A stretch of 50,597 bases of DNA. Origin: Fibrobacter sp. UWT2 (lineage in GTDB: Bacteria; Fibrobacterota; Fibrobacteria; Fibrobacterales; Fibrobacteraceae). The stretch spans positions 1 through 50,597 of the forward strand of contig NZ_FRBF01000020.1 of NCBI RefSeq assembly GCF_900142545.1, in the 5' to 3' direction. Position 1 is the first letter of the stretch. Every line of letters begins with the position of its first letter. The notes under the pieces are model-generated. The model was given only the letters and a program-made list of their open reading frames with translations, was not told where the DNA came from and did not search any database. Shown here one piece after another: positions 6,467-50,597 of this stretch. A program made the translations under genes and the position numbers.

Positions 6467-6472
6467 TATAAT
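6467..6472 (+). promoter_or_regulatory. Consensus -10 box TATAAT before the first STAND gene
   Basis: TATAAT lies 23 bp before the ATG. The paralogous gene has TATAAT in the same place (11206-11211, 24 bp before its ATG), so the element seems conserved between the two. No good -35 hexamer is visible at 17 bp. Transcription would start near 6479, leaving a leader of about ten bases. Confidence 0.5.
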
Positions 6473-6491
6473 TGCCTCTAGAGGCAATTAT
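6468..6491 (+). promoter_or_regulatory. Perfect 24-bp palindrome over -10 box, RBS and start codon
   Basis: The left arm ATAATTGCCTCT (6468-6479) is exactly complementary to the right arm AGAGGCAATTAT (6480-6491). The palindrome covers most of the TATAAT box, the AGAGG Shine-Dalgarno sequence and the first two bases of the ATG. It could be an operator for a dimeric repressor. In read-through RNA it could also form a hairpin with a CTAG loop that masks the ribosome binding site. Confidence 0.75.
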
Positions 6492-11184: not shown

Positions 11185-11205
11185 TGTCAAGTTCGATAAA
11201 TAATC

Positions 11206-11226
11206 TATAATTCTTCTAAAGAGGTC
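11206..11226 (+). promoter_or_regulatory. -10 box and RBS of the second STAND gene
   Basis: TATAAT at 11206-11211 and AAAGAGG before the ATG match the layout of the first STAND gene. TTGATG at 11181-11186 is a possible -35 element with a 19-bp spacer and overlaps the stop of the first gene. The palindrome of the first gene is not conserved here, so the two genes may be controlled differently. Confidence 0.45.
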
Positions 11227-11229
11227 ACT

Positions 11230-14200
11230 ATGGGAAAAAAGATTCGCACGCAAGAAGCTTCCATTCCACAAGCGTCCCGTATTTTTACGGATCGCGAAGA
11301 ACCGCGTAAATCTTTTTGGAAGTGTTATAATCATTTCAAGGAGAATATGAAGGATGGCGATGCAAAAGTCCTTGTCTACTATGGTGTAGGCGGCATCGGG
11401 AAGTCGTCCCTGCTAAAGCAACTCATAAAGGAGATGGATGAGGCCGCGGCGGCAAAAACGATAAGCAGCTCACTTCAAGTGTATTTTGATTTCAACTTGA
11501 AACAGGAACCACGTGCCGTTCTGGAGGCTCTACGCAACAAACTGGTGGACGACTATAAATTTGAGTTTCCTCTGTTCGATATTGGCAGCTATGTTTACGC
11601 AAAGAAGATTGGCGAGAATCGAGATAGGCCAGAGGTGAAATCTTTCATAGAGCGCAGTGTGATTCTCAGGTGTGCTTTCGCGGCTGTTGAGGATATTCCT
11701 GTTGTCGGGATCGCATCCTTGATTGCTCGGCTAGCGGATAAAGGCATTGCCGTTTTTCGGAACATGAAAGCGAAAAATCGCGATGAACTTCAAAAAATTG
11801 AAGTTATGTCCCATGAAGAGTTGCAGGACTATTTCCCTGTTCTTTTCGCTCGCGACATTGCTGCGAACATGGAAGGGAAAAATGAGCCTCTGGTGATTTT
11901 CCTGGATACCTATGAACAGTTGGTGAACGAAATGGCTGCCATTGGAGCTCCGCTGAACAACGACCTTTGGCTGAGGGACGATAACAAGGGCTTGGTGTTG
12001 AATGCGCCGAGTGTATTTTGGGTCATTGCTGGTCGTGAAAAACTCAAGTGGCCGCAGGATTGGGGAGATTCGTTGGAACAACATATCCTGGGCAATCTTT
12101 CTGAAACGGATGCGAAGAACTTCTTGCTGCATGCGGGAATTGAGGATGTTGAACTTCAGGATGGCATATATAAGCTGACGAAAGGGACGCCTGTGTATCT
12201 GGACCTTTGCGTGGATAGGTTCCAGTCCTTGATCGGAAACGGGGAAGCTCCTAGGGTAGAGAATTTTGGTAACGATATCTATGCCTTGATAGAACGATTC
12301 GCAAGGTATATGGATGATGCTAGGAAGGATATTGTTTACATATTGTCTTGTTTGGGGGTGTGGAGTGACGAAATGGCTCTTGAAATTGGCCCGAAGGTGC
12401 TCCCGAATTACAGTGTGACTACTTATGAGAAAGTGAAGGGCCTTTCTTTTATTATTGAATCAGAAAAGGGGCGCTATAACCTGCACCAGACAGTAGGGGA
12501 TGTCTTGTATAAGGATTGCCCCGAAAGCATAAAGGAAAAAACGGTTTCTGCGGCGATTGCTTATTGCGAAGAAAAACTCAGTGGCTTAGATGCATTCTCT
12601 ACGGAATTCGAGTATTATGTTGGCTGGTTGATGAAACATGCCCTCCGATATTATTGCGAGGACGATGATATTCGAGGGTTTTATATAGAACATATTCGGC
12701 CACATTTAAATAAGCTGAATGATCTAAAACGTTTTCGTTCTATAGAAGATCTGTTCAATCCTTTTTGGGAAAGGGCTTCGCAAGATAAAGAAAGCCGTTT
12801 GTATGCCCTTGTGCAGAAAGACTATTCCATTTGGCTACGAGGGATGGGGCGGTATAAAGAATCTACAGACATGGCGAAATCCGCCTATGAACTGTATGTT
12901 AAGTTGATTGGCGCTGATGATGTTATAACTTTGCGGGCACAACGTGAATATGCCATGGGGCTTCATTCGCAAGGAATGTATCAAGAAGCTTTGGAAATAC
13001 GTAAAGAAGTTCTTGAAAGGCGAATCAAAAAACTTGGTGAGAAAAATCTTGAAACAGTTGAATCGTTTGTGGATATGGCTAATTCCTATGAAAAATTGGG
13101 GATGTATGGAAAACAGTTGGAAATGGCTGAAAAAGCTTACCAATTAAGATCCATTTTACTAGATCCTAATGATCCATTTATTTTTAGATCAAGAAATAAT
13201 TTGGTGACAGGATATAGGAATTTGGGTGAAAATAAAAAAGCGTATGAAATTGGCGAAGTGTTGTTAGCGGATGTAGAAAAAAAGCTAGGGAAGGATGATG
13301 AATGTACATTAGATATAATGTCGAACCATATAGATACATTGGTAAAGCTCGGTTTGTATGACAAAGCGGTGGCATTGCGAAAGGAGGTTCTTGATCGAAG
13401 AAAGATGCTGTTAGGCGAGGATCACCCTAAAACGATTAGAGCTATAAGATCGTTGTCTAGTGTGTATGATGATATGGGCCGTTATGCCGATGCGCTGCCG
13501 CTAAGGGAGTTGGTTCTTGAAAAGCGTCGGAAACTCTTTGGAGATAGTCATCCTGATACATTGAAAGCCATATGGGGCGTTGCCTATGCGCTGGAACAGC
13601 TTGGCCGATATCAAGAGGCCTTGGCCCTCCGTCAGAAAATATATGACCTCTACAAGGAAACGCAGGGTGAGGATTTCCCGGACACGATAACTGCCTTGGG
13701 GAATATTGCTAAAAACTACGAGAAGCTGGGGGAATATGACAAGGCTGTGGCATTGCGAAAAGAGGTTCTTGAGCGAAGAAAGAAACTTTTAGGCGAGGAC
13801 CATCCTAAAACGATTAGTGCTATCAAATCGTTGTCTAGCACATATGATAAAATGGGCCGCTATTCCGACATGCTTCCATTAAAGGAGCTTATTCTTGAAA
13901 AGCGTCGTAAGCTTCTTGGAGATAATCATCCTGACTCATTGAAAGCCATATGGGGCGTTGCCTATGCGCTGGAACAGCTTGGCCGCTATCAGGAGGCGCT
14001 TGTCCGTCGCCAGGAAATATATGACCTCTACAAGGAAACGCAGGGTAAAGATTTTCCGGACACGATAACAGCTTTGGGAAACATTGCTAAAAACTACGAG
14101 AATTTGGGGGAATACGACAAGGCTGTGGAATTGCGAAAGGAGGTTCTTGAGCGAAGAAAGGCGCTTTTAGGCGAGGACCATCCTAAAACGATTAGTGCTG

Positions 14201-36613: not shown

Positions 36614-37363
36614 ATGTGCCGCATCAAGTTTATGAACACCGAAATTGATAACCTGACAATGACGGAAACATTGTTGGCTATAGATGAATTGATTCAAAAA
36701 AACAAGAATGCTTATGTAGTTACGCCGAATGTCGATCACATTGTTAAGCTGGAAAAGAATGAAGATTTGAAAAATGCATATTCTGAAGCAGATTTGATAT
36801 TGACTGACGGCAAACCCCTAGTTTGGGCTTCTAGGTTGTATCGTAATCCTATTAAGGAAAAAATTTCCGGGTCAGATCTTTTCCCGGAACTTTGCAAGCT
36901 TGCAGCAGAAAAGCATTATTCCATGTTCTTTTTGGGAGCCAAAGAGGGCGTTGCAGCAAGAGCTGCAGAAAATCTAAAAATCCAGTATCCTGGTTTGGAT
37001 GTGGTTGGATGCTATGCTCCGCCTTGGGGTTTTGAGAATGATTCTGCAGAACTTGATAGAATTGAAAAAATGATCAAGGATGCAAATCCTCATATTTTGA
37101 TTTTGGCTCTTGGATGTCCTAAACAGGAAATTTTTGCGCATCAGTTCCGTAACCGTTTTAATGTGCCGGTGTCCTTGTGTCTTGGGGCAACGCTTGATTT
37201 TTCGGCGGGCAATGTGAAACGTGCTCCACGCTGGATGGCAAATGTTGGCTTGGAATGGCTGTACAGATTGTGTCAAGAACCCAAGCGTATGTTCAAACGC
37301 TATGTACTTGAAGACTGGAAATTCGCTGGATTGTTGTTTAAATATTGGGGAGATGCCTCGTGA
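36614..37363 (+). CDS. WecG/TagA/CpsF-family glycosyltransferase
   Basis: A 249-aa GT26-family enzyme. Typical segments are VVTPNVDHIVKLEKN near 35-50, ADLILTDGKPLVWASR near 59, FFLGAKEGVAARAAENL near 100 and LALGCPKQEIFAHQFR near 155. WecG/TagA proteins transfer ManNAc, ManNAcA or another sugar to a lipid-linked first sugar, so this enzyme probably adds the second residue of the repeat unit on the cytoplasmic side of the membrane. The initiating phosphoglycosyltransferase is not in the window. The ATG follows GAGGTGA. Its stop overlaps the GTG of ugd by three bases. Confidence 0.92.
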   Translation: MCRIKFMNTEIDNLTMTETLLAIDELIQKNKNAYVVTPNVDHIVKLEKNEDLKNAYSEADLILTDGKPLVWASRLYRNPIKEKISGSDLFPELCKLAAEKHYSMFFLGAKEGVAARAAENLKIQYPGLDVVGCYAPPWGFENDSAELDRIEKMIKDANPHILILALGCPKQEIFAHQFRNRFNVPVSLCLGATLDFSAGNVKRAPRWMANVGLEWLYRLCQEPKRMFKRYVLEDWKFAGLLFKYWGDAS

Positions 37364-38688
37364 ATATTGCGATCGTAGGAACTGGTTATGTTGGTCTTGT
37401 GAGTGGAACTTGCTTTGCAGAAATGGGTGTAGACGTCACATGTGTTGATGTGAACCAAGCAAAGATTGATTCTCTCCAAAAGGGCGAGATTCCTATTTAT
37501 GAACCGGGCCTTGATGAAATGGTTCTCAGAAACCAGCGGGAGGGCCGCCTGCATTTCACGACAGATCTTGCCAGCGTCCTCGATAGTGTAGAAATGGTCT
37601 TTAGCGCTGTAGGTACGCCTCCGGATGAAGATGGTTCTGCAGACTTGCAGTATGTGTTGGCTGTGGCTCGTACATTTGGCCAGAATATCAAGAAATATAC
37701 TGTTCTAGTCACTAAATCTACCGTTCCTGTGGGAACGGCGAAGAAGGTCAAGGCGGCTATTCAGGAAGAACTGGATAAGCGCGGTGTCAAGATTCCGTTT
37801 GACGTGGCAAGCAACCCGGAATTCTTGAAGGAAGGCTCAGCCATTACGGATTTCATGAAACCCGACCGTGTCGTGGTGGGTGTGGAAAGTGAACGGGCTA
37901 AGGAACTCATGACCCGCTTGTACCGCCCGATGATGCTCAACAACTTCCGTGTCATCTTTACCGACATTCCTAGTGCAGAAATGATCAAGTATGCAGCGAA
38001 TAGCATGCTTGCAACTCGTATCAGCTTCATGAACGATATCGCGAATCTCTGCGAACTGGTTGGGGCCGATGTGAATATGGTCCGTCACGGTATTGGCAGC
38101 GATTCCCGAATCGGTAGCAAGTTCCTGTACCCCGGTTGCGGATACGGTGGAAGCTGCTTCCCCAAGGATGTGAAGGCTCTCATCAAGACCGCCGAAAAGA
38201 ACGGCTACAAGATGGGCGTGCTCAAAGCCGTAGAAGAAGTGAACGAATTCCAGAAGACCGTTCTCTTCAAAAAGCTCTGTAAACATATGGGTGGTGAACA
38301 GAACCTGAGGGGCAAGACTATTGCCATGTGGGGGCTCGCCTTCAAACCTGAAACCGATGACATGCGCGAAGCAACCGCGTTGGTACTCATCGACTTGTTG
38401 ACAAAGGCAGGAGCGACCGTTCGCGTCTATGATCCGGTTGCCATGAATGAATGTAAGCGCCGTGTAGGCGACATCGTCACTTATTGTAACGACATGTACG
38501 ATGCGTTGCTCGATGCCGATGCACTTTTGCTCGTCACTGAATGGAAACTGTTCCGTATGCCGAGTTTCGGCGTGATGAAAAAGTCCATGAAGAACGCCCT
38601 TATCATCGATGGCCGTAATATTTACGATGCCAAGGAAGTCGGTGAATATGGGTTTGTTTATGATGCAATAGGATGTTTTCGTTGTTAA
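37360..38688 (+). CDS. ugd: UDP-glucose 6-dehydrogenase
   Basis: A 442-aa UDP-glucose/GDP-mannose dehydrogenase. It has an NAD site GTGYVGLVSGTCFAEMG near residue 7, STVPVGTA near 125, NPEFLKEGSAITDF near 151 and the catalytic Cys near 266 in GYGGSCFPKD. It oxidises a nucleotide sugar, most likely UDP-glucose to UDP-glucuronate, giving an acidic sugar whose carboxylate could be a target for the ATP-grasp enzymes of the cluster. The start is the GTG at 37360, after GGGGAG; it overlaps the wecG-like stop. Codon use is closer to the core genes than in the rest of the operon. Confidence 0.93.
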   Translation: MNIAIVGTGYVGLVSGTCFAEMGVDVTCVDVNQAKIDSLQKGEIPIYEPGLDEMVLRNQREGRLHFTTDLASVLDSVEMVFSAVGTPPDEDGSADLQYVLAVARTFGQNIKKYTVLVTKSTVPVGTAKKVKAAIQEELDKRGVKIPFDVASNPEFLKEGSAITDFMKPDRVVVGVESERAKELMTRLYRPMMLNNFRVIFTDIPSAEMIKYAANSMLATRISFMNDIANLCELVGADVNMVRHGIGSDSRIGSKFLYPGCGYGGSCFPKDVKALIKTAEKNGYKMGVLKAVEEVNEFQKTVLFKKLCKHMGGEQNLRGKTIAMWGLAFKPETDDMREATALVLIDLLTKAGATVRVYDPVAMNECKRRVGDIVTYCNDMYDALLDADALLLVTEWKLFRMPSFGVMKKSMKNALIIDGRNIYDAKEVGEYGFVYDAIGCFRC

Positions 38689-38703: not shown

Positions 38704-39786
38704 TTGAGTAGTGTATTGATATTGATGCCGCTCCTTTTTGCTGGAGGTTCCGAAAAGCAGGTCCGATTAATAGCGCAGGGGCTTGCCAAGAAGGGACTTC
38801 CTGTCACATTGTTGATAGAGAACGGTGTTGCTGAAGATTACAAGTCCTTTATTGACGAAAATAAAAATATTGATTTTGTCTTTTTGAAGGGAAAAATCAA
38901 TAACGAAGAAGATAAAACAGTTCTAAAAAAAATCCTTGCTTTGGCTAGAATTTGGTGCTGGCTCTTGCGTCACTGTAGCAGGAAAACTTATTCCTGGGTG
39001 ATGTTTACGAATTTGACCGGCTTGTTTTGCGTTCCTTTCGTGAAAATTAGGGGATCGAAAGTCCTGTTCAATGAGAGAAACGCGGGTGCCAAAATGTGTA
39101 ACAGCAAGGTAAAACGCGTCCTGTTGAACCTGTGTACGAAAATTGTTGCCAATTCCCGAAATGCTTCTGCGATTCTTTCCGAAACTTTGCATAGGAACGT
39201 GGAATGTATTAATAATGGGGTCTCCGTTGACCGCTTGCCTGGCAATACAAAATCTTTAGGTTACATCTTAGTGCCTGCAAGAGTGACATCGATAAAGAAT
39301 CAGATGGTTGTATTGAAGTCCATGCTTCACTTTGCTCCTGAGCAAAGGCCCAAGGTTGTATTTGCGGGCGTACAGAATGATTCCACTTACCAGAATCAAT
39401 TGGATTCGTTTATTGATTCACATGGATTGCGTGAGTGTGTGGAATTTGTAGGCTATGCTTCTAATATAGCGCAGTATTATAGCGAAGCTGGAATCGTCAT
39501 TTTGCCATCGTATGAAGAAGGAACTCCAAACGTATTGTTGGAGTCCTATGCAATGAAGGCTTTCTGCTTGGCATCAGACATCGTGATGAACCGTGATGTT
39601 TGCATGAATGACAAGATTCTTTTTTCTCCTGATGACGATGAATCCCTGAGTCAACGGATTACTTGGGCTTTTGGATTGTCCGATGAAGAAAAACAGGTGA
39701 TTTTGGATAAGAACTTCGATTTTGTTATGAAAAATTATTCTATAGAAGTAATGCAAGATCGTTATTACGCTCTATTTTCGGCATAG
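38704..39786 (+). CDS. GT4-type glycosyltransferase
   Basis: A 360-aa GT-B-fold glycosyltransferase. The N-terminal acceptor domain begins LILMPLLFAGGSEKQVRLI. The donor domain has SLGYILVPARVTSIKNQ near 193, CVEFVGYASNIAQYYSEAGIVILPSYEEGTPNVLLESYAMK near 240-280, containing the E-x7-E motif for the nucleotide sugar. It should add one sugar to the lipid-linked repeat unit. The start is a TTG at 38704; an AAGG lies upstream at a longer than usual distance, so the start is less certain. Confidence 0.88.
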   Translation: MSSVLILMPLLFAGGSEKQVRLIAQGLAKKGLPVTLLIENGVAEDYKSFIDENKNIDFVFLKGKINNEEDKTVLKKILALARIWCWLLRHCSRKTYSWVMFTNLTGLFCVPFVKIRGSKVLFNERNAGAKMCNSKVKRVLLNLCTKIVANSRNASAILSETLHRNVECINNGVSVDRLPGNTKSLGYILVPARVTSIKNQMVVLKSMLHFAPEQRPKVVFAGVQNDSTYQNQLDSFIDSHGLRECVEFVGYASNIAQYYSEAGIVILPSYEEGTPNVLLESYAMKAFCLASDIVMNRDVCMNDKILFSPDDDESLSQRITWAFGLSDEEKQVILDKNFDFVMKNYSIEVMQDRYYALFSA

Positions 39787-39799
39787 TTGGATTGGCTGT

Positions 39800-40975
39800 A
39801 TGAAGAATGTGATGATATTATCAAAGGCTTTAACCTTCGGAGGTGCTGAACGTGCTGCGGCCGCATTGGCTGGTTATATGGCGAAAGAGTGTAATTGCAT
39901 TTTAGTCGTAATAGATGATGAAAATAAGACCTACGAGAGCGACGCTAAAATAATTACGCTTAAACAATCCGTTGTCAATAAAGGGCGCGGGCTGACCTTG
40001 CTAATGTGGTTTGTAAAGCTATTTTTTAAGGTCAGAAAAATTCGTCGTGAATATGAAATTGACGAATGCATTAGTTTCTTGACGGAACCGGATTTAATCA
40101 ATATTTTAACCGGCTCGAAAAAATCCAAGTCAACGATATCTGTGAGAAATTTGAGATCTGCAGTGGTAAAAGGCAAAATCAAGAGGCTGCGAGATAAATG
40201 GCTGTTTAAAAAAGCTAATCGAATTGTAGCCACGTCTAAAATGGTTAAAGACGATTTGATTAAAGTATTTGGTGCTGATGAATCAAAAATTGAAATTGTC
40301 TATAATATTTGCGATCAAAAGCGTATTCTAAATGCCGCACAAGAAGATTGCCTTACGGATGAAGAAAAAAAGTTTTTTGGAACAGGAGATGTTGTTATTA
40401 CCACGGGTCGATTGACAGGTCAGAAAGGACATTGGCATTTGATTCGTGCGTTCTCCGCTGTCGTAAAAGAGCATCCGAATGCGAAATTGGCAATTCTTGG
40501 ACAAGGCGAATTGAATGATTATTTGCAGAAACTTATAGATGACTATTCATTGACCGATTCCGTTCGTATTTTGGGATTCAAGAAAAATCCCTATGCATAT
40601 TTGAATAAAGCGAAAATTTTTGCGTTCAGTTCCTTCTTTGAAGGTTGCCCGAATGCTATTTTGGAGGCTTATGCGGTTGGACTTCCCGTTGTGACGACAG
40701 ATGGCGTAGGGATACGTGAAATTGTTGCTCCCGAAACCCACTATGCGAAAAAAACTGATTGTTTGGAGCACTGCAGTTATGGCGTGTTGACTCCAGTCTG
40801 TGATGGCGAAAAATATGATGCGGGTAAACCTTTGACTCAAGCCGAAGTAGAAATGAAAAAGGGTATTTCGCTGCTTTTGGAAGACAGAGAGTGCCTTGAA
40901 CATTACAAGCAGGCTTCGGAAGAAAGAATAGGTTTCTTTACAAAAAAATCGATTTTAGGAATGTGGATCCGATAG
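39800..40975 (+). CDS. GT4-type glycosyltransferase
   Basis: A 391-aa GT-B-fold enzyme with FGGAERAAAALAGYM at the start, SVRNLRSAVVKGKIKRLRD in the acceptor domain, TTGRLTGQKGHWHLIRAF near 200 and FFEGCPNAILEAYAVGLPVVTTDGVG near 275-300, which holds the E-x7-E motif. The order of segments is that of GalNAc or glucosyl transferases such as PglJ/EpsF, but the sugar cannot be named. The C-terminal part is longer than in its neighbour (an insertion near 310-340, CLEHCSYGVLTPVCDGEKYDAG). It lies 13 bp after the preceding gene. Confidence 0.9.
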   Translation: MKNVMILSKALTFGGAERAAAALAGYMAKECNCILVVIDDENKTYESDAKIITLKQSVVNKGRGLTLLMWFVKLFFKVRKIRREYEIDECISFLTEPDLINILTGSKKSKSTISVRNLRSAVVKGKIKRLRDKWLFKKANRIVATSKMVKDDLIKVFGADESKIEIVYNICDQKRILNAAQEDCLTDEEKKFFGTGDVVITTGRLTGQKGHWHLIRAFSAVVKEHPNAKLAILGQGELNDYLQKLIDDYSLTDSVRILGFKKNPYAYLNKAKIFAFSSFFEGCPNAILEAYAVGLPVVTTDGVGIREIVAPETHYAKKTDCLEHCSYGVLTPVCDGEKYDAGKPLTQAEVEMKKGISLLLEDRECLEHYKQASEERIGFFTKKSILGMWIR

Positions 40976-40993: not shown

Positions 40994-42328
40994 ATGATTT
41001 TGTTGACAGATTTATTTATTGTTGCTGTGTGCTGCATGATTCTCTTGGATTTTAAGAGAGGCTTTTTTGTTGTAGTATTGGCAAAGCTGTTTACTCCGGT
41101 TTATGTACGGTTCGTGCTTGGCCCAGTAAGTGTTGATGTTTTTGACCTATGGACTGTCGTCATGATTATGTCTCTGGTAGTGCATAGGGTGAAATTATCT
41201 TCTGTAAAGAGATATCCTTTTCTTAAATGTTTCTTGCTCTATAGTGGCGTGTTAATCGTGTTGGCGCTCTTTGCTACTAGAATGCCGTTGGGTTCGCAGT
41301 TGTATTACATCATCAAACAAAACTTGTTCCAAGAGATGTTGATTTGTTATTTTGCCTATTTGGTTTTTATCGAAAAACAGTCTGCGGGCCGATTCGTCAA
41401 TTATATGGTGATTGTTTGCATCATTTGCGGCTTTTATGGAATACTAGTTTACCTGATGCAAAAGAATGTGTATATAGATTCCCTGTCTAGGGCTTTTGTT
41501 GGTGAGAAAAATATTTATGCGGATTTTCTCAATGACGCTAGAATGGGGTTGAAGGGGCGCTCAAGTGGAACCTTGCCACACCCTCTGTCTTGGGCGCAAT
41601 ATTGGTGTGTTATAGTCAGTTTTGTATATCTTATCAAGGACCATCTTAAGAAAAATCTCTATTATATTCTTTTGTTCCTTGGATTGACAAATATCGTTCT
41701 TTCGGGATCGAGAGCGGCCTTGTTAAGCTTGTGCCCCCTGCTTTATTTGTATTATCGGCGGGCGGATTTGTCTAAAAAAGTTATTTGTTTGATGGCTTTA
41801 TTGGTTGCCGTGGTGGCAATTCTTGGTTATTCCAATAAGGGTGAATCTTTATTGAATATTGCCCGATCCTTGATTGTAGATACCTCGGGCAGAGCGGCAA
41901 CAGGCAGTTCTTCTACCATGAGACTTTCTCAATTTGAAAATATGATGAACATATTGAAAGGCAAGGATTTTCTGTTTGGTTACGGTTCAGGATTCCTAGC
42001 GTCTGAATCAAATTTGAGAGAATCTTTGACCTTGGAAATGCGAGGTTTTGAATCTGTGATTTTCCAGAAAGTGTTCGACTCGGGGATTTTTGGTTGCATA
42101 GCGTTTTTTGTCTTTTTTAAACGGTTGTTTGATACGTTAAAGATTCAGTGTACTTCTCAGGGATTTTCGCTGGCAATGTTTTTCTTGTCCTATTTAATTG
42201 CGGTTTTGCTAACCGGTGTACAAGGTGGTTCTTTTTCGTTCTTCCTGGTGTTTAGTTTTGCCTGTGTGTTTTTTTTGCAAAAGAAAGAAGAAAAAAATAC
42301 TGAGAGAAAAAACGCAAAAATCGGGTAG
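40994..42328 (+). CDS. Wzy polymerase/O-antigen ligase-like membrane protein
   Basis: A 444-aa protein with about 11 hydrophobic segments and a large loop at about 170-200 and again at 290-345, the pattern of the O-antigen ligase/polymerase superfamily. The short stretch GRSSGTLPHPLSWAQYW near 190 and VLSGSRAALLSL near 233 are typical of it. Given the other genes it is more likely the Wzy polymerase that joins repeat units at the periplasmic face. The C-terminus is a short Lys-rich cytoplasmic tail. It lies 18 bp after the preceding glycosyltransferase gene and 5 bp before the next. Confidence 0.82.
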   Translation: MILLTDLFIVAVCCMILLDFKRGFFVVVLAKLFTPVYVRFVLGPVSVDVFDLWTVVMIMSLVVHRVKLSSVKRYPFLKCFLLYSGVLIVLALFATRMPLGSQLYYIIKQNLFQEMLICYFAYLVFIEKQSAGRFVNYMVIVCIICGFYGILVYLMQKNVYIDSLSRAFVGEKNIYADFLNDARMGLKGRSSGTLPHPLSWAQYWCVIVSFVYLIKDHLKKNLYYILLFLGLTNIVLSGSRAALLSLCPLLYLYYRRADLSKKVICLMALLVAVVAILGYSNKGESLLNIARSLIVDTSGRAATGSSSTMRLSQFENMMNILKGKDFLFGYGSGFLASESNLRESLTLEMRGFESVIFQKVFDSGIFGCIAFFVFFKRLFDTLKIQCTSQGFSLAMFFLSYLIAVLLTGVQGGSFSFFLVFSFACVFFLQKKEEKNTERKNAKIG

Positions 42329-42333
42329 GGAAT

Positions 42334-43491
42334 ATGAGAAAACTTCGGGTTCTACATTTGATATGGTCAATGGGTGCTGGAGGTGCTCAGCAGATTGTCT
42401 TGAACTACCTGCGTGATTTCCAAAATGATCCTGATATCGACTTGAAATTGTGTGTTTACACTGGCAAGACGAAATCTAAATACGATCAAGAAATTGAGGA
42501 AAATCACTACAATGTACAGTATTTAAACTTCCCAAAGACATGCGTCAAAATTCCTTATTTGAAAAGATATTTTCAAATTCCTGTTTCTAAAAAGAATTGG
42601 CGAAAGGCTATTGAGGATAATCGTCCCGATATTGTGCATGTGCATATCTCTGCGCTGCTTTCAATCACGTTGGATGCTGTAGTAGATTTGAATGTGCCGG
42701 TTCGATTTGATACATTGCATAGTGATCCTAGGCGCTATAGGGGCAGAGAATTGCGCTATATAAAGAGAGCTTTTAGTAAAGAAGGCTTCGTTCCCTTATG
42801 TGTAACAAAGGAACAAGTTTCTTTGGCGCAAGGCCATTATGGAAATTTTGACTATGAATTAATCCCTAATGGTGTCGATGTTGAAGCGCTAAGAAGGGAG
42901 ATTGTAAGTAAAGAATCTGCACGCAGAAAACATGGTTTGTCTTCTGAGGATTTTGTTGTCCTTGCCGTGGGAAGAATCAATCCGATCAAGAATTTCTCTT
43001 TGCTCATAGATGCATTTGCTTTGTTGTTGAAAAAGAATCCTCGGGGCTTGCTGGTTTTTGCTGGTAGTTGCGTTCCTCGTGAAAAGGCAAAACTGGTCCG
43101 TAAGATTGAATCTTATGGGATTGCTGACAGGGTGCAGTTTTTAGGGTCGTTGTCGAATGTCGTCCCTCTGTATTGTGCCGCAGATGTACTTGCAGTCACG
43201 TCTATTTCTGAATCTTTCTCCTTGGTTACTCTGGAAGCTCAAATCTGCGGAACACGCTGCGTGATTTCCAACGGAGTTCCTTCTGAAGTTATTGTGTCGA
43301 ATGCCGTCAGAAAGATGGATGCGCAAGATAGCGCTGAGACCTGGGCTGAAGCGTTGCTGGACACGGCGTATAAAGGGGAAAAAGTTTCTGATATAGAAGA
43401 GTTTGATGTTCATGCTGTTAGCAGAAAACTGAAGAATGTGTATTTGAAGAAGTGGAATGAATACATGGAGAGGGCGAATGCAAATCAATAG
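42334..43491 (+). CDS. GT4-type glycosyltransferase
   Basis: A 385-aa GT-B-fold enzyme. It starts LRVLHLIWSMGAGGAQQIVLNYL, and has PDIVHVHISALL near 97, LIPNGVDVEALRREI near 172, VVLAVGRINPIKNFSLLIDAF near 205 and ADVLAVTSISESFSLVTLEAQICG near 285, with the E-x7-E motif (E-S-F-S-L-V-T-L-E). It adds a sugar to the repeat unit; donor unknown. It lies 5 bp after the polymerase-like gene and overlaps the acetyltransferase gene by 14 bp, which suggests coupled expression. Confidence 0.9.
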   Translation: MRKLRVLHLIWSMGAGGAQQIVLNYLRDFQNDPDIDLKLCVYTGKTKSKYDQEIEENHYNVQYLNFPKTCVKIPYLKRYFQIPVSKKNWRKAIEDNRPDIVHVHISALLSITLDAVVDLNVPVRFDTLHSDPRRYRGRELRYIKRAFSKEGFVPLCVTKEQVSLAQGHYGNFDYELIPNGVDVEALRREIVSKESARRKHGLSSEDFVVLAVGRINPIKNFSLLIDAFALLLKKNPRGLLVFAGSCVPREKAKLVRKIESYGIADRVQFLGSLSNVVPLYCAADVLAVTSISESFSLVTLEAQICGTRCVISNGVPSEVIVSNAVRKMDAQDSAETWAEALLDTAYKGEKVSDIEEFDVHAVSRKLKNVYLKKWNEYMERANANQ

Positions 43492-44047
43492 CCGTAAAGA
43501 TTTGAAATATTTTTTGGAAAGAGACCGCATTGCCTTAAAAAGGAAAAAATCCTTTTTTAAAGATGATATTTGGAAATTTGAAATTTTGCTCAGAAAGGCG
43601 GAGTATTATTGTAACTGCATGCCGGGCCCTTTGAAAAAAATAGGTTCTCTGTACAAGAAACGCTTATATGCCTTAGGCAGAAAGTGCGGTGGGTTCTCGA
43701 TACCGGTGAATGCGTTTGGACCCGGTTTGTCCATTGCTCATTATGGAACCATAGTGGTGAATGAAACTACAAAAGTGGGCTGTAATTGTAGAATACACGA
43801 AGGCGTTACCATTGGCGCTACGGGACGTTCGGGGCAAGCCGCTCACATCGGTGACAACTGCTTTATTGCTACGGGTGCAAAGATTATCGGTGCCGTAGAA
43901 CTGGGCGATGATGTTGCTATAGGGGCAAATGCCGTTGTAACAAAATCTTTTGCTGAAAACCACATAACTCTTGCAGGTGTTCCCGCCAAAAAAATCAGTG
44001 ATCATGGATCTCATGATTTTTTAGCGGAGGGATTATTCAATGAATGA
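43478..44047 (+). CDS. Serine acetyltransferase-like hexapeptide acyltransferase
   Basis: A 189-aa left-handed beta-helix protein. The C-terminal half carries hexapeptide repeats (VGCNCRIHEGVTIGATGRSGQAAHIGDNCFIATGAKIIGAVELGDDVAIGANAVV), and ends with the usual LAGVPAKKI. The catalytic His is probably the one in IAHYGTIVV or RIHEGV. Such CysE-like proteins in polysaccharide loci O-acetylate sugars with acetyl-CoA. The N-terminal 60 residues are basic and helical. The ATG at 43478 follows GGAGAGG and overlaps the previous gene by 14 bp; an in-frame ATG at 43457 lacks a ribosome site. Confidence 0.85.
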   Translation: MQINSRKDLKYFLERDRIALKRKKSFFKDDIWKFEILLRKAEYYCNCMPGPLKKIGSLYKKRLYALGRKCGGFSIPVNAFGPGLSIAHYGTIVVNETTKVGCNCRIHEGVTIGATGRSGQAAHIGDNCFIATGAKIIGAVELGDDVAIGANAVVTKSFAENHITLAGVPAKKISDHGSHDFLAEGLFNE

Positions 44048-45161
44048 TTTTAGCAGAAAGGTTATTGTTTTTGGTGGAAATCATCATAATCCTCTGGGCG
44101 TAATCAGAGCCTTGGGAAGAAAGAAATTAGATGTTTTTTTCTTGACGTCTGTAAAAAACTCTTTTGTCGCACATAGTAAATACGTTACAGAAACAATCTT
44201 TCTGGAAAAAGATGAAGACGCTCCTCAAGTTTTGTTGAACCGTTTTTCTTCAGAACTTGTTAAACCCGTTATCGTCTGCTGTGGAGACGGATTTGCCGCT
44301 ATTATCATGAATAGCCGCGAAATGCTAAAGAAAGCCTTTATTATGCCTTATGCAAAGGTGTATCAAAAAGGCAATATCTTTGATAAAGGCTTTCAGGCTG
44401 CCGTTGCGAAAGAATGTGGTATAGAAATGCCGCAAAGTCAGGTGCTTGAATTATCCGAAGCAAAAGAACTTTTGAAAAACTGGAATTCATTTCCCAGTAT
44501 TGTAAAGCCTTTGGATAGCCTTATGGCTTTCGGTGGGAAAGATGATATACGTATTGTCGAAAATTCAGAGGAACTGAATGCCGCGTTAGAAAAAACACAC
44601 TCTATCAAAATCCAGATACAGCAGTATATAAAAAAGAAAATGGAATTTCAGTTGATCGGCTGCTCTTTGGATGAAGGGCGAATCGTGATTATCCCTGGAT
44701 TTACGCATATTTTGCGTCAACCGCCTAATACCAATACAGGTTTTTTGAAATACAGCAGCTGCGAAAAACTTAATTATGATTTGAGAAAAATTAAGGATTT
44801 TATGCGGAGAGTCGGTTATTCGGGCCTTTTTTCCGCAGAATTTCTGCGAGAAGAAAAAGGAGATTACTTCATGGAAGTTAATTTCCGTAATGATGGTAAT
44901 GCGTATGTTGTGACCCAGGCAGGAGTAAATTTGCCTTATTTATGGGTGTATTATTGTTGCGAAGGTAAATTACCACCTAATGAACCTGAGACGATAAAGA
45001 GAGAAACTTTTTTTATGCCGGATTTGCAGGATATTCGCAATGTGATGCATGGCGATCTTTCTTTGATTACTTTTATTCGAGATTGGTTTAAAACCAAAGC
45101 GCATGCGGTTTATGATTTGAAGGATTTAAAGCCTTTCTTACATCAACTCTTCCTTCACTAG
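44040..45161 (+). CDS. ATP-grasp carboxylate-amine ligase-like protein
   Basis: A 373-aa ATP-grasp enzyme. An N-terminal pre-ATP-grasp domain (VIVFGGNHHNPLGVIRALG, 8-26) is followed by ATP-binding Lys 156 in SIVKP, the acidic loop IQIQQYIKKKMEFQLIG near 190 and the metal site EVNFRND (E279, N281). Members activate a carboxylate as an acyl phosphate and join it to an amine or similar nucleophile. The protein is collinear with the C-terminal half of the BCCT fusion 3.6 kb downstream (same FG..H.NPLG start and E-x-NFRN site), so the two are paralogues. The last 60 residues have no known motif. The ATG overlaps the acetyltransferase stop region by 8 bp. Substrates are unknown. Confidence 0.85.
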   Translation: MNDFSRKVIVFGGNHHNPLGVIRALGRKKLDVFFLTSVKNSFVAHSKYVTETIFLEKDEDAPQVLLNRFSSELVKPVIVCCGDGFAAIIMNSREMLKKAFIMPYAKVYQKGNIFDKGFQAAVAKECGIEMPQSQVLELSEAKELLKNWNSFPSIVKPLDSLMAFGGKDDIRIVENSEELNAALEKTHSIKIQIQQYIKKKMEFQLIGCSLDEGRIVIIPGFTHILRQPPNTNTGFLKYSSCEKLNYDLRKIKDFMRRVGYSGLFSAEFLREEKGDYFMEVNFRNDGNAYVVTQAGVNLPYLWVYYCCEGKLPPNEPETIKRETFFMPDLQDIRNVMHGDLSLITFIRDWFKTKAHAVYDLKDLKPFLHQLFLH

Positions 45162-45172
45162 GAATAGAAAAT

Positions 45173-46099
45173 ATGAGCGAAAAGTATTTTGTCATTACCA
45201 TTGACACGGAAGGTGATAACCAATGGAATCTTTCTAAGAGTCCTTCAACGGAGAATGCGAAATTTCTACCGCGCTTTCAGGAACTAAGCGAAAAGTACGC
45301 ATTCTTTCCCGTATGGCTGACAAATTATGAAATGGCGTGTGATTCGTTTTTCGTTGAGTATATGCAAGATCGCCTAAAGGCAAGAACCTGCGAAATAGGA
45401 ATGCATTTGCATGCTTGGCATAACCCTCCGGAACACCATTTGGAGAAGAAGACGAATCAGCGTTCCTATCTGATTGAGTATCCTGAAGAAGTAATGGATC
45501 AAAAGATCGGCTATTTGACGAATCTTTTGGAGGATACTTTTCAGATAAAGATGGTTTCTCATCGGAGTGGCCGCTGGACGACTAATGACGTTTATTTTAA
45601 ACTTTTAAAGAAATATGGTTATAAAGTGGACTGCTCCGTAACACCGCTTGTCAATTGGGAAGCGTGTTTGGGAGAGTCTGGCGTTCCTGGGTCTGACTAT
45701 TCTTGTTGTCCGTCAAAGCCTTACTTAATATATGATGGTCTATGGGAAGTTCCTGTGACTATAAAGTATTTACATGATTTCTGCATAGACAGAATCCATT
45801 CCGTAAAGGGCTTTGCCAAAGAGATCAAATGGGCTTTGAAAGGCCGAAATGAGTGGATCCGCCCGGATGCATCTTGCTCTTTCTTGAAGATGAAAAAAGT
45901 TTTGGATGCGTCCCGTGATAATGAATATGTTATGTTTATGCTTCATTCTTCAGAGATGATGCCTGGTGGAAGCCCTTCGTTTCCAAACGAAAGATGTATT
46001 GAAAAATTGTTTGGTTGTATAGAGCGCCTTTTTGATTATGCGAAGGGGCTTGGGTATAAAGGTATTACTTTGGCAGAATACCAAAAATTGCTAAAATAA
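45173..46099 (+). CDS. Polysaccharide-deacetylase-like protein
   Basis: A 308-aa NodB/carbohydrate-esterase-4-like protein. Metal-site candidates are TIDTEGD (D11, D15), HLHAWH (H78, H80, H83) and SHRSGRW (H130, R131). There is no signal peptide or membrane segment, so it acts in the cytoplasm, perhaps on a nucleotide- or lipid-linked amino sugar. Removing an N-acetyl group would create the free amine that an ATP-grasp ligase needs, which fits its position between the two ATP-grasp genes. Spacing to both neighbours is under 12 bp. Function as deacetylase is inferred from the fold motifs. Confidence 0.75.
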   Translation: MSEKYFVITIDTEGDNQWNLSKSPSTENAKFLPRFQELSEKYAFFPVWLTNYEMACDSFFVEYMQDRLKARTCEIGMHLHAWHNPPEHHLEKKTNQRSYLIEYPEEVMDQKIGYLTNLLEDTFQIKMVSHRSGRWTTNDVYFKLLKKYGYKVDCSVTPLVNWEACLGESGVPGSDYSCCPSKPYLIYDGLWEVPVTIKYLHDFCIDRIHSVKGFAKEIKWALKGRNEWIRPDASCSFLKMKKVLDASRDNEYVMFMLHSSEMMPGGSPSFPNERCIEKLFGCIERLFDYAKGLGYKGITLAEYQKLLK

Positions 46100-46106
46100 A
46101 TGATGT

Positions 46107-47600
46107 ATGGCTGAAGTAGCGAACAAAAGCATTGTTAAGAGTCTTTTTTGGACTTATGGAGAAAAACTCAGTACGCAGTTTGTATCCATTCTTGTGACCA
46201 TTATTCTAGCTCGTCTTTTGTCTCCTGATGACTACGGTGTCATTTCCATAGTCATGGTGTTCATTCTTTTTTGCGACATTTTTGTGACGGGTGGATTTGG
46301 TCAAGCTCTAGTGCAAAAGAAAGATGCAGATGACTTGGATTTTAATTCAATGTTCATATGCAGCTGTGTAATGTCGTTGTTGCTGTATGGCGTGATTTTC
46401 TTTGGTGCCCCTTTTATAGCTGATTTTTATGAACGTCCCGTAATTGTTCCTGTATTGCGTGTTCTAGGATTGCGACTGATTGTATCTAGTTTCAATACGA
46501 TTCAGCAAGCCAAAATCCAAAAGTCGATGACCTTCAAAAAATCTTTTTTTGCTACAGCGGTGGCTACGTTGTTGTCGGCTGTTGTTGGCGTGATTTTGGC
46601 TTATTGTGGCTTTGGCGTATGGGCCTTGGTGGGGCAGTATTTGGTTTCCATTTTTGCGGTGACGATTGCTCTTGCTCGAATTTGTGATTGGTCTCCGCGG
46701 CTTCAGTTTTCATGGACTCGCTCCAAACTTCTGATTAACTTTGGCTGGAAGGTCCTGTTGACAACGATTTGCTTTACCTTGGTGAACGACTTTAGAAGCC
46801 TTGTTGTTGGAAAAAAGTTTGGCCCAGGTGATTTAGCTTTCTATGATCAAGGGCAGAAATTTCCGAATTTAATTGTAACGAATATCAATGCTTCCATAGG
46901 AAGAGTGCTGTTTCCTGCCTTTTCTAATCGGCAGGATGATTTGGCGTATGTAAAACAGTTGTGCAGGAAGGGGATTAACTTGTCGACGTTCCTGTTAGCG
47001 CCACTTCTTATTGGGTTGATTGCTGTTGCAGATACATTCGTTGAAGTGATTCTTACGGAAAAATGGATCCCTTGCGTATTCTATATGCGTATGTTGACCT
47101 TGATGTTTTTGGTAAGACCTTTCACGACGACATGCCATCAAGCTATTATGGCGTTAGGGCGAAGTGACATTACTTTAAAGATTATGGTTGTAATTAATGT
47201 GATCGCCTTGATTTTACTTTGTATTGCTCTGTTTGTGTTTAATAGCGTGCCGATGGTGGCCGTAGGAAGTGTCTTATCTGAATTAGTTAGTGTAATTCTA
47301 TTTATGTTTTATATAAAAAAGTTTGTTGGATATACATACACGGAGCAGGTTCGTGATGTCTTGCCCAGTTTAGTGTTGTCTGCAATTATGGGTAGTGCAA
47401 TATTTGGCTTGTCGTTTTTGGTGGCGGATAAAATGATGCTGTTTATTGTCCAGCTTGGAATAGGCGTGCTGGTTTATGTCGTTGGTAGTACAGTCTTTAA
47501 AATGAGCGGGGTTGTCTTTATTCTCGGCAAAATGAGCCGGAAAATGCCTCGGGTATGGTTCGTCGACAAACTTTTGGCATATTTGAATATAGCAAGGTGA
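46107..47600 (+). CDS. Wzx-type polysaccharide flippase (MOP superfamily)
   Basis: A 497-aa membrane protein with about 14 hydrophobic segments, of the WzxC/TuaB type. The N-terminus NKSIVKSLFWTYGEKLSTQFVSILVTIILARLLSPDDYGVISIVMVF is typical, as are GFGQALVQKKDADDLDFNSMF near 68 and LGLRLIVSSFNTIQQAKIQKSMTFKKSF near 122. It would carry the finished lipid-linked repeat unit to the periplasmic face, where the Wzy-like protein polymerises it. It lies 7 bp after the deacetylase-like gene and 39 bp before the BCCT fusion. Confidence 0.9.
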   Translation: MAEVANKSIVKSLFWTYGEKLSTQFVSILVTIILARLLSPDDYGVISIVMVFILFCDIFVTGGFGQALVQKKDADDLDFNSMFICSCVMSLLLYGVIFFGAPFIADFYERPVIVPVLRVLGLRLIVSSFNTIQQAKIQKSMTFKKSFFATAVATLLSAVVGVILAYCGFGVWALVGQYLVSIFAVTIALARICDWSPRLQFSWTRSKLLINFGWKVLLTTICFTLVNDFRSLVVGKKFGPGDLAFYDQGQKFPNLIVTNINASIGRVLFPAFSNRQDDLAYVKQLCRKGINLSTFLLAPLLIGLIAVADTFVEVILTEKWIPCVFYMRMLTLMFLVRPFTTTCHQAIMALGRSDITLKIMVVINVIALILLCIALFVFNSVPMVAVGSVLSELVSVILFMFYIKKFVGYTYTEQVRDVLPSLVLSAIMGSAIFGLSFLVADKMMLFIVQLGIGVLVYVVGSTVFKMSGVVFILGKMSRKMPRVWFVDKLLAYLNIAR

Positions 47601-47639: not shown

Positions 47640-50276
47640 ATGAATATTCAACGTGTTGTGAAAAAAATGAAAAAAGAAAGCAGTTCAATTATCGCATTTT
47701 GCCTATTGATGGCGATAATTCTTCCGTTGCCGCTGTTGAATATAGACAAGTCATTTTTTGGACAAATGTTTCACGATATTTGTGTGGCGACAAGAGAGTT
47801 TGTAGGCTTTTCTACTGTATTCTGCCTTTTAGTGATTTTATTCTTTGTTTTTTCAAAGTACGGGAGTGTCAAAATTGGTGGCCAATACGCTAAACCGGAG
47901 TACAGCAATGTATCTTGGGTATCCTGTCTTATAATGGCCGGCTTGGGAATAGGGATCGTATTCTATTGTGAGGAACCTCTATTCCACATGAATAGTAATC
48001 CGTATTTTGGGAATGTGGCTGGAAGTGCGGAAGAAGTCGCGTATTCTCTTACTTTGTTTGATTGGACTTTGAATGCTTGGAGTATGTATGGAGTACTTGG
48101 TGTTATCATTGCGTATTTCCATTACAATAAAGGTCGCGAACTGAAACTTAGTGCTGCGTTCCCAGGCAGAACAAACCGTTGGTTAAAGAAAATCGTTGAT
48201 ATAGTCATGGCTTTAGGCATTGTTGCTGGTTTGACAACTTCCTTGGGCCTGGGTGTTGCTCAGTTGAAAGGTGGCGTGGAATATGTTTTTGATTACGATA
48301 TCAGTCCTTATCTGTTGATGGCTGTAATTGGTTTGGTTGCTGTATGGTCTGTTAATTCGGGCTTAAAGAGGGGCGTGAAGTGGCTTTCAAATGTTACAAG
48401 TGTCTTAATTGTTGTTATGCTAATTGTTGTTGTTGTTCTTGGTTATCATTCATTTGATTTGAAATCCTCCTTTACAGGGTACACTTTGAGGGGTGTGAAA
48501 AATTTTGCTCAAAATTTTGTTAGTTACAATAAGTTTTGGGAAGAATTTTCTGATGAATGGGCTGCCAGTTGGGCGGTTTTCTATCAACTTTGGTTTGCGG
48601 CTTGGGCTGCATTTGTTGCCGTTTTCCTTGCAAAAATTTCCAAGGGACGCACAATCCGTGAAACAATGATTGCCATTGTTCTTTTGCCTACAGTGCTAAC
48701 CGCTATTTGGTATGGTGTTTTTGGCAATGTAGGTTTAGTTGTCAAAGATGAACTTTTTGCTCTAATGCAACAAAATCTTCCCCATTCATTATTTTATCTT
48801 CTCAAACAGTTGGCGGGAGAGTCCGGATCTGTTGTTTTGTCCGTCGCGGTGATGCTTACCATATGCTGTATTTTTGTCACTTCTTCTGATTCCAGTTCTT
48901 ATGTTGTGGCGACGCTATTGTCAAAGGATAAGGAAGTTCGTGCGCTTAATAAGATTGTTTGGGGATGTGTCCAATGTGGATGCGCCATGCTTCTGTATTA
49001 TTGTGGCGGATTGTCTCTAATTCAGTCTGCATCAGTTGTTCTTGGACTAGCCGTTCTTGTTATTATATTGCTTGGTAGTGTGTATTTTATCTATGTTTTG
49101 GTTCGGGAAGATCGAAGCAAGTCTGCAAAGATGCCGTTCTCTAATTTGTGTATCGTTTTTGGCTCGGATCATTATAATCCTCTGGGAATAGTACGTTCTT
49201 TGGGGGAAATCGGCGTGTCTCCGGTTGTTGTTTTGGTTGGTGAAAACCCTGTTGCGATCCCTGCTAGCAAGTATCCTCAAAAAATCCATTATGTGAAAAG
49301 TAATGAGGAAGGTTTGGCCTTGATAAAAAGCGAATACGGTCGTAGAAAAGAAAAATGTTTCATTCTGACGGGCAGTGATGATACTACGGCATTGCTGAAT
49401 GAACATTATGATGAATTGAAGGATGACTTCTATTTCTACAATTGTGGTGAACAAGGACGCTTGAATCATTTTATGCAGAAAGAAGTTCTGAACCAATTGG
49501 CAGAAGACTGTGGGGTGAATGTTGCTCGACGTGAAGTTGTAAAAAGGGGAGAGTTGCCCAAAAATCTTCGATATCCCATAATTACTAAGGCTGTTAATTC
49601 CTTATCTACAAGCTGGAAAAATACCATGCATATTTGCCACAATGCGGAGGAACTGCTTGGCGCCTATAAAGATATAGAAGATGAAGATGTTTTGCTTCAG
49701 GAATATATTATCAAGAAAAATGAATTGTGTATTGACGCTGTGGCTTGCAATGAAGGTAAAGATGTCTTTATTCCCATAAATTCCTTCTACCACAGATTAT
49801 TTGATAAAAGCTATGGCTATTACTACTATTTTACACAATTTGACAACAAAGATCTTACGGAAAAAATTAGCTTGATGCTTCAGAAAGCCAAATTTACGGG
49901 CATTTTTTCGGTGGAATTTCTTGTAGATGAAAATGACCAATTGTATTTTTTGGAGATTAACTTCCGCAATTCAACGTGGAGTCATGCTTCCACAGCAGCG
50001 GGCTATAATCTAGTTCATTCTTGGATAGATGCGACCTTGAATGGGCGCATCAATCGTGAAAGTGTAAACATTACTAAGTTGCCTTTTAATTGTCTTGTTG
50101 AAATTAATGAGTATAGGGCGAATGTTAAGACAAAAAAAATTTCCAAGCTTCAGTTTATGAAGGATATTAGAAACAGTGATTATTTGACTTATTGGAATAG
50201 AGAAGATAATGGCCCCTTCTGGGCTATTGTGAAAAATATTTTGGCAAAGAAGCTCCCTTCAAGAAGAAACTCCTAA
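47640..50276 (+). CDS. BCCT transporter fused to an ATP-grasp ligase
   Basis: An 878-aa two-domain protein. Residues 1-490 are a complete BCCT-type transporter of about 12 membrane segments: glycine motif GLGIG (101-105), FDWTLNAWSMY (140-150), WFAAWAAFVAVFLAKISKGRTIRE (318-341) and TSSDSSSYVVATLL (414-427). By comparison with BetP, W142, W147, Y150 and W322 would match aromatic-box residues, and F319 replaces a Trp. Residues 503-878 are an ATP-grasp ligase: IVFGSDHYNPLGIVRSLG, Lys 650 in IITKA, and E772/N774 in EINFRN. The C-terminal domain is paralogous to the enzyme encoded at 44040. The frame is continuous across the linker (490-502). AAAAGGGG precedes the ATG. It probably imports a small zwitterion and ligates it, or an activated form, to a polymer precursor; this is inference. 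Confidence 0.88.
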   Translation: MNIQRVVKKMKKESSSIIAFCLLMAIILPLPLLNIDKSFFGQMFHDICVATREFVGFSTVFCLLVILFFVFSKYGSVKIGGQYAKPEYSNVSWVSCLIMAGLGIGIVFYCEEPLFHMNSNPYFGNVAGSAEEVAYSLTLFDWTLNAWSMYGVLGVIIAYFHYNKGRELKLSAAFPGRTNRWLKKIVDIVMALGIVAGLTTSLGLGVAQLKGGVEYVFDYDISPYLLMAVIGLVAVWSVNSGLKRGVKWLSNVTSVLIVVMLIVVVVLGYHSFDLKSSFTGYTLRGVKNFAQNFVSYNKFWEEFSDEWAASWAVFYQLWFAAWAAFVAVFLAKISKGRTIRETMIAIVLLPTVLTAIWYGVFGNVGLVVKDELFALMQQNLPHSLFYLLKQLAGESGSVVLSVAVMLTICCIFVTSSDSSSYVVATLLSKDKEVRALNKIVWGCVQCGCAMLLYYCGGLSLIQSASVVLGLAVLVIILLGSVYFIYVLVREDRSKSAKMPFSNLCIVFGSDHYNPLGIVRSLGEIGVSPVVVLVGENPVAIPASKYPQKIHYVKSNEEGLALIKSEYGRRKEKCFILTGSDDTTALLNEHYDELKDDFYFYNCGEQGRLNHFMQKEVLNQLAEDCGVNVARREVVKRGELPKNLRYPIITKAVNSLSTSWKNTMHICHNAEELLGAYKDIEDEDVLLQEYIIKKNELCIDAVACNEGKDVFIPINSFYHRLFDKSYGYYYYFTQFDNKDLTEKISLMLQKAKFTGIFSVEFLVDENDQLYFLEINFRNSTWSHASTAAGYNLVHSWIDATLNGRINRESVNITKLPFNCLVEINEYRANVKTKKISKLQFMKDIRNSDYLTYWNREDNGPFWAIVKNILAKKLPSRRNS

Positions 50277-50320: not shown

Positions 50321-50554
50321 ATGATGAGAAAAACATCTACATGGATACTGGTGTTTCCGTTTGTTCTGATATTATTGATTGCGACTACATTTGCAAATTC
50401 GTCAAACGTAGCTTCTGCTCCGGCGTCTGAGTTTTCGATTAGAAAAGGAATCAATATCAGCGAATGGATGGAACGAGAAAATTCTCCATATGAACATTTA
50501 GATAGTCGTCCCTTAAAATCCCGCCCAGCCCGCATAACTATTGGGAAAAACTGA
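50321..50554 (+). pseudogene. Short remnant with GH5-like N-terminus
   Basis: A 77-aa reading frame with a hydrophobic, signal-like segment (about 7-25) and then SIRKGINISEWM, which resembles the first strand of GH5 cellulases (RGINISHW). The homology stops within 15 residues, and the frame ends at 50554 without any catalytic region. No good ribosome site precedes the ATG or the TTG at 50279. It is best read as a decayed or frame-shifted start of a glycosidase gene, or as a short secreted peptide. The window ends before this can be decided. Confidence 0.3.
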
Positions 50555-50597
50555 TTTCTACCCTGTGAAAATATTGCAAGGTTTTCTAAAATATGAC

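Follow-up and report, generated by a model that had tools for sequence, protein, structure and literature searches.

Does a single protein of rumen Fibrobacter both import a small compound and ligate it into a surface polysaccharide? The question is raised by the gene at 47640..50276 of contig NZ_FRBF01000020.1 of Fibrobacter sp. UWT2 (assembly GCF_900142545.1; the whole stretch analysed here, 50,597 nucleotides, is termed the window). An initial annotation, made from the letters alone, had read a full betaine/choline/carnitine-type transporter (BCCT) running in frame into a full ATP-grasp ligase, within an exopolysaccharide operon. Both parts of this reading held: the gene is one 878-codon frame in which both domains pass their Pfam cut-offs, and wzx, Wzy_C, ugd and glycosyltransferase genes lie in the same run. 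The features are as follows.

36614..37363, + strand: WecG/TagA/CpsF glycosyltransferase, start of the cluster (PF03808, E 1.6e-64)
37345..38688, + strand: UDP-glucose 6-dehydrogenase (ugd), TuaD-like (TIGR03026, 455 bits against a cut-off of 189.8)
38704-39786 and 39800-40975, + strand: two GT4-type glycosyltransferases (PF00534/PF13692)
40994..42328, + strand: Wzy/O-antigen ligase-like polymerase (Wzy_C; PF04932, E 3.1e-12)
42334-43491, + strand: GT4-type glycosyltransferase (PF00534)
43457-44047, + strand: hexapeptide acyltransferase (PF00132)
44040..45161, + strand: second, separate ATP-grasp ligase, 373 aa (25% identity to the fused domain, a distant paralogue)
45173..46099, + strand: 308-aa protein, possible sugar deacetylase (NodB-like motifs TIDTEG, EIGMHLHAWH and SHRSGRW)
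46107..47600, + strand: Wzx-type flippase, immediately 5' of the fused gene (PF13440, E 3.9e-93)
47640..50276, + strand: fused BCCT transporter-ATP-grasp ligase gene, single open frame, 878 aa
47640..49133, + strand: BCCT transporter part, residues 1-498 (PF02028 at 35-484)
49134..50276, + strand: ATP-grasp ligase part, about residues 503-870

The fused gene starts with an ATG that has a good Shine-Dalgarno sequence (AAGGGGA) 5' of it, and a spacer of about 15 residues separates the end of the BCCT domain from the start of the ATP-grasp domain. The related genes of Bacteroidales are separate, as would be expected if a sequencing or assembly error had joined two genes here, but no stop codon lies between residues 490 and 503, where one would have pointed to such an error, and the ATG at codon 499, a possible internal start, has no convincing ribosome-binding site. 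The fused gene is also intact in the F. succinogenes metagenome-assembled genome (MAG) RUG13981 (L002:10001-12637), in which 9 of 2637 nucleotides and 4 of 878 residues differ from the window, none of them at the junction. Because an independent, slightly different assembly has the same open junction, a joining error is refuted in practice and its probability is negligible; the BCCT/ATP-grasp fusion in rumen Fibrobacter is real. It is known from only two distinct, very similar genomes, the window's and RUG13981 (fused copies in G076 and G170 have identical contig coordinates and were both taken as this same MAG), and no further carrier was found among 168 Fibrobacterota genomes.

In the ligase half, residues 682-805 match ATPgrasp_Ter (PF15632) with 29.6 bits, just above the cut-off of 29.1; this was the only Pfam match, and none of the TupA type was found up to E 0.01. 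Against solved structures, the half matches N5-carboxyaminoimidazole ribonucleotide synthetase (PurK). An AF2 model of the full-length protein is confident for residues 501-870 only (pLDDT mostly 70-90), and a Foldseek search with this part returned the complete ATP-grasp ligases PurK, L-amino acid ligase BL00235, PurT and PylC, with E values down to 6e-14. The ligase half is thus, according to the model, full length and of carboxylate-amine ligase fold. The alignment invariants K152, E261, E274, N276 and R278 (domain numbering) are present, and the conserved lysines and the E-x-N-x-R metal/ATP motif are kept, so that fold, lysine and motif together predict an ATP-grasp carboxylate ligase. Enzymes of such fold convert a carboxylate to an acyl phosphate, which is then passed to an amine or another nucleophile.

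The transporter half matches PF02028 over residues 35-484 with 358.3 bits (cut-off 27; E 7e-107), which places it in the BCCT family, and its matches among solved structures are TmaT, BetP, BetT and CaiT (best E 2e-65). None of the NCBIfam BCCT models gives it a score over the cut-off: 295.8 against 650 for the betaine transporter, the best-scoring model, 216.8 against 695 for BetT, 149.2 against 541 for CaiT and 278.5 against 407.55 for TIGR00842. Nothing is claimed from the modelled transporter half, because its pLDDT is near 30; instead, BetP numbering was mapped via an alignment to the solved BetP chain. By this alignment, W189, W194 and Y197 of the first cage segment are kept, as are T467 and S468 of the Na2 site (T414 and S415 in the fused protein), which predicts a Na+ site. 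The signature of TM8 is changed (W371Q, A372L, W374F, P379A), and the full betaine cage of W189, W194, Y197 and W374 is incomplete, with Phe in place of W374. The fused protein therefore resembles BetP, TmaT, BetT and CaiT in its full-length Pfam match, W189/W194/Y197 and T467/S468, but differs from them in its TM8 signature, its sub-cut-off NCBIfam scores and its C-terminal ligase.

The altered signature is found in the nearest relatives also. In the BCCTs of two Bacteroidales loci, L003 and L004, the changes are W371N, A372L, W374F and P379A, and in that of the Fibrobacter locus L031 they are W373C, W374Y and W377Y; W371 and W374 are kept in 35 of 35 comparison BCCTs and likewise in the BCCTs of phosphocholine loci. 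In BetP, W374 helps to form the cage that holds the trimethylammonium group; because it is lost, the substrate would differ from glycine betaine or would be bound differently, and is probably not ordinary glycine betaine. As read from the alignment, the loss of W374 argues against a betaine transporter but leaves BCCT ancestry untouched. Both ends of a BCCT are cytoplasmic, as is established for BetP and CaiT, and the ligase half would therefore face ATP.

Flippase, polymerase and glycosyltransferases in one gene run identify the surroundings of the fused gene as a Wzx/Wzy polysaccharide cluster. Its G+C content (37-40%) is below that of the first 30 kb of the window (49%), which suggests lateral gain. 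Among the neighbours that the initial annotation had named, ugd (whose product is UDP-glucuronate) and the second ATP-grasp gene stood, whereas the deacetylase-like assignment of 45173-46099 rests on short motifs: the protein had no NodB or polysaccharide deacetylase match in Pfam, NCBIfam or PDB, profile comparison was negative, and its AF2 model was of poor quality. The 308-aa NodB-like protein comes after an ATP-grasp gene both in the window and in L038, where the same pair as at 44040-46099 lies beside a LicD-like gene; this region (L038:1604-8374) also holds genes that, read by eye from the sequence starts, resemble a 2-aminoethylphosphonate pathway (PEP mutase-like and phosphonopyruvate decarboxylase-like). 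A PIG-L type deacetylase gene with an HPDDE motif is found at L004:6030-6708, upstream of a sugar transferase and an ATP-grasp gene, and has an in-frame stop in the assembly.

Downstream of the fused gene, L002 encodes a GH5 cellulase-like protein and a HAD-like protein. In the window, the last ~93 bases (50505-50597) are wholly unlike L002 and break the GH5 cellulase-like gene; an insertion, or a repeat at the end of the contig, may account for them. Elsewhere the window encodes a von Willebrand A domain protein (118-891) upstream of a 770-aa ankyrin-repeat protein (1876-4188), and a 1570-aa protein consisting mostly of TPR_12 repeats (6472-11184; 13 matched stretches).

The BCCTs nearest to the fused one come from the two Bacteroidales genomes (L003, 51% identical; L004, 49%). 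The order in L004 is sugar transferase, ATP-grasp (7317-8450), BCCT (8548-10056), a small gene and ATP-grasp (10726-11850), with the BCCT and ATP-grasps as separate genes of one polysaccharide cluster; a second fusion, hinted at by an "open frame 1101" value, was rejected, since stops from 10054 on separate the genes. Downstream of the L003 BCCT, which also belongs to a polysaccharide cluster, come in turn genes for a sugar transferase, an ATP-grasp from a different family, a PLP enzyme and one more ATP-grasp. Fibrobacter G077 has a divergent BCCT at L031 (28% identical), 8 bp from an ATP-grasp gene whose product is 51% identical to the L003 ATP-grasp. L031 is the same chromosomal site as L002, because the downstream flanking genes are common to both; the site carries wholly different polysaccharide clusters in the two, a situation that we liken to serotype switching, and BCCT and ATP-grasp genes are present in both clusters.

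A recognisable ATP-grasp gene lies within 1.5 kb of the BCCT in all three unfused cases (L003, L004 and L031) and of 0 of 35 comparison BCCTs from Bacteroidota and Fibrobacterota, which is a contrast rather than an independent statistical test, because the four ATP-grasp-linked BCCTs (these three and the fusion) were found via similarity to the fused BCCT and three of them are related. Their partner ATP-grasps belong to two different families. In a tree, the fused ligase half, both L004 enzymes and L029:9819 of G053 form one group (support 1.0), outside which the window's second ATP-grasp (44040..45161) falls. The closest ATP-grasp relative of the ligase half, that of Fibrobacter G053 (43%), is encoded in a polysaccharide cluster, and no BCCT was found in this genome, which is 80% complete; the fused type of ligase can thus apparently work without the transporter. 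Across 80 Fibrobacter genomes there are five full BCCT genes (two are the fused gene, one is at L031 and two lie with LicA-, LicC- and LicD-like genes), and because all five are in polysaccharide loci, the Fibrobacter BCCTs found serve, by position, surface-glycan clusters. Viral contigs contained no relatives, the plasmid matches listed were only ordinary BetT-type BCCTs with no record covering 80% of the query, and overlapping draws of 393, 395, 297 and 397 Bacteroidota genomes yielded no close BCCT besides those of G168 and G169. The link between BCCT and ATP-grasp functions that had been proposed from the fusion is backed independently by the separate neighbouring genes in polysaccharide clusters of these Bacteroidales and of another Fibrobacter.

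With moderate confidence, we favor the interpretation that the fused protein is a two-step decoration module of a Wzx/Wzy surface polysaccharide, in which a small compound is imported and then joined to the repeat unit in an ATP-dependent reaction. The fusion, its two complete domains, the polysaccharide setting and the recurrent BCCT/ATP-grasp neighbourhood can be read directly from the DNA; we infer the direction of transport, the substrate, the bond (amide or ester), the timing and any hand-off within the fused protein. The BCCT half would import a small zwitterionic or amino compound; plain glycine betaine is unlikely because the aromatic cage is altered. The cytoplasmic ATP-grasp half would turn a carboxylate into an acyl phosphate at the expense of ATP and, while the lipid-linked repeat unit still awaits flipping or export by Wzx, would couple the imported compound to one of its sugars. 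Two chemistries may be envisaged. The imported compound could supply the carboxylate and a sugar amine accept it, the amine being that of an amino sugar freed by a deacetylase, for which 45173-46099 is a candidate by its motifs. Alternatively, a uronic acid derived from the action of ugd could be activated and the imported compound supply the amine; a ugd-derived uronic acid is a possible partner because an ATP-grasp domain of C. jejuni capsule synthesis acts on glucuronic acid. A stronger form of the two-step proposal, in which the ligase captures the substrate as it enters via the joined secondary transporter (vectorial ligation) and so feeds the surface polysaccharide, is doubtful at present.

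The same pathway could operate without coupling, if neighbouring cluster genes were fused in frame and the two halves worked independently; the fusion would then merely fix the ratio of the halves and put the ligase at the membrane. We regard this as possible, if on the unlikely side. Bacteroidales L004 and L003 and Fibrobacter L031, where the two genes are neighbours but unfused, indicate that the fusion is dispensable, and it occurs in only two very similar Fibrobacter genomes. Against this, the frame is still open in both and no more than 4 amino-acid changes separate the two proteins, a point of little weight, since the genomes are too close. It is improbable, by comparison, that the protein transports an osmolyte, carries at its C-terminus an ATP-grasp domain that is unrelated or regulatory, and is in the cluster by accident. 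BCCTs are classically betaine, choline and carnitine osmolyte transporters, BetP has regulatory terminal extensions, and the best-scoring NCBIfam model is a betaine transporter, although its 295.8 bits are far under the cut-off. However, the betaine-cage residue W374 is lost, the catalytic motif of the ATP-grasp half is intact, and the fused BCCT is the sole BCCT of its genome; moreover, full BCCTs occur in only 5 of 80 Fibrobacter genomes, all in polysaccharide loci, which argues that they are not housekeeping proteins in this genus.

Imported choline that decorates a glycan is a known pattern (PMC8027243), and the cluster could be a variant of the phosphocholine pathway, in which choline brought in by the BCCT feeds a Lic-type decoration and the ATP-grasp has a separate task. 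Choline-type BCCTs do occur with LicA-, LicC- and LicD-like genes in Fibrobacter (L055 and L056) and Bacteroidales (L057), and the genome of the window has five LicD matches, on other contigs. Yet a Pfam and NCBIfam scan of the cluster genes found none of LicA, LicC and LicD, which together define the Lic pathway in a locus, the best choline kinase score in the genome was 19.6 bits against a cut-off of 29, which none passed, and the BCCTs of phosphocholine loci keep W371 and W374, which the fused BCCT does not. We therefore hold a phosphocholine pathway here to be improbable. In the loci that do have such genes, the BCCT adjoins LicC-like and LicA-like genes (L055:8542-12647, L056:4006-8067 and L057:2569-5662; the LicA-like call in L055 is by PF01633, 62.7 bits), with LicD-like genes near the BCCT in L055 and L056; judged by gene content, all three are probable phosphocholine loci with a BCCT in place of LicB.

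The two-step decoration module that we favor has partial parallels in known systems. It shares with the Lic pathway (import by LicB or BetT, then LicA, LicC and LicD) an import step dedicated to glycan decoration, which BCCTs provide, by position, in other Fibrobacter and Bacteroidales loci, but neither kinase, cytidylyltransferase nor LicD was found in the cluster of the fused gene, and an ATP-grasp ligase stands in their place. Amide formation on capsule sugars by ATP-grasp ligases is established: Cj1438 of Campylobacter jejuni is a GT2 glycosyltransferase fused to a TupA-like ATP-grasp amidoligase, and its Cj1438C part forms an amide of ethanolamine-P or serinol-P with glucuronic acid of the capsule (PMC11800379). 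Both proteins join an ATP-grasp domain to another function in capsule or polysaccharide synthesis; in contrast to Cj1438, the Fibrobacter ATP-grasp, a predicted ligase, is of another, ATPgrasp_Ter-like subfamily, and its partner is a transporter. CA_C2189 of Clostridium acetobutylicum, annotated as an "ATP-grasp amino acyl ligase" (PMC4000134), is one example of an ATP-grasp ligase encoded alongside sugar-modifying enzymes in an operon for surface polysaccharide, but it has a gene of its own, with no fused transporter. The initial annotation knew of no described protein of this architecture, and the literature searched, which covers the field in part, likewise gave no earlier account of a BCCT/ATP-grasp fusion and nothing relevant on Fibrobacter surface glycans. 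Each half is of a known kind; what appears to be undescribed is their union in one protein, together with the pairing of BCCT and ATP-grasp in polysaccharide clusters.

That transporter and ligase are fused argues strongly that both activities belong to one pathway. It points to decorations of surface polysaccharides that are made from scavenged small molecules via ATP-grasp enzymes, beyond phosphocholine, and it provides a testable handle on what is transported by BCCTs whose betaine cage is incomplete. The fused protein is also a candidate for transport coupled to covalent capture; vectorial ligation, if true, would link import to covalent modification in a new way.
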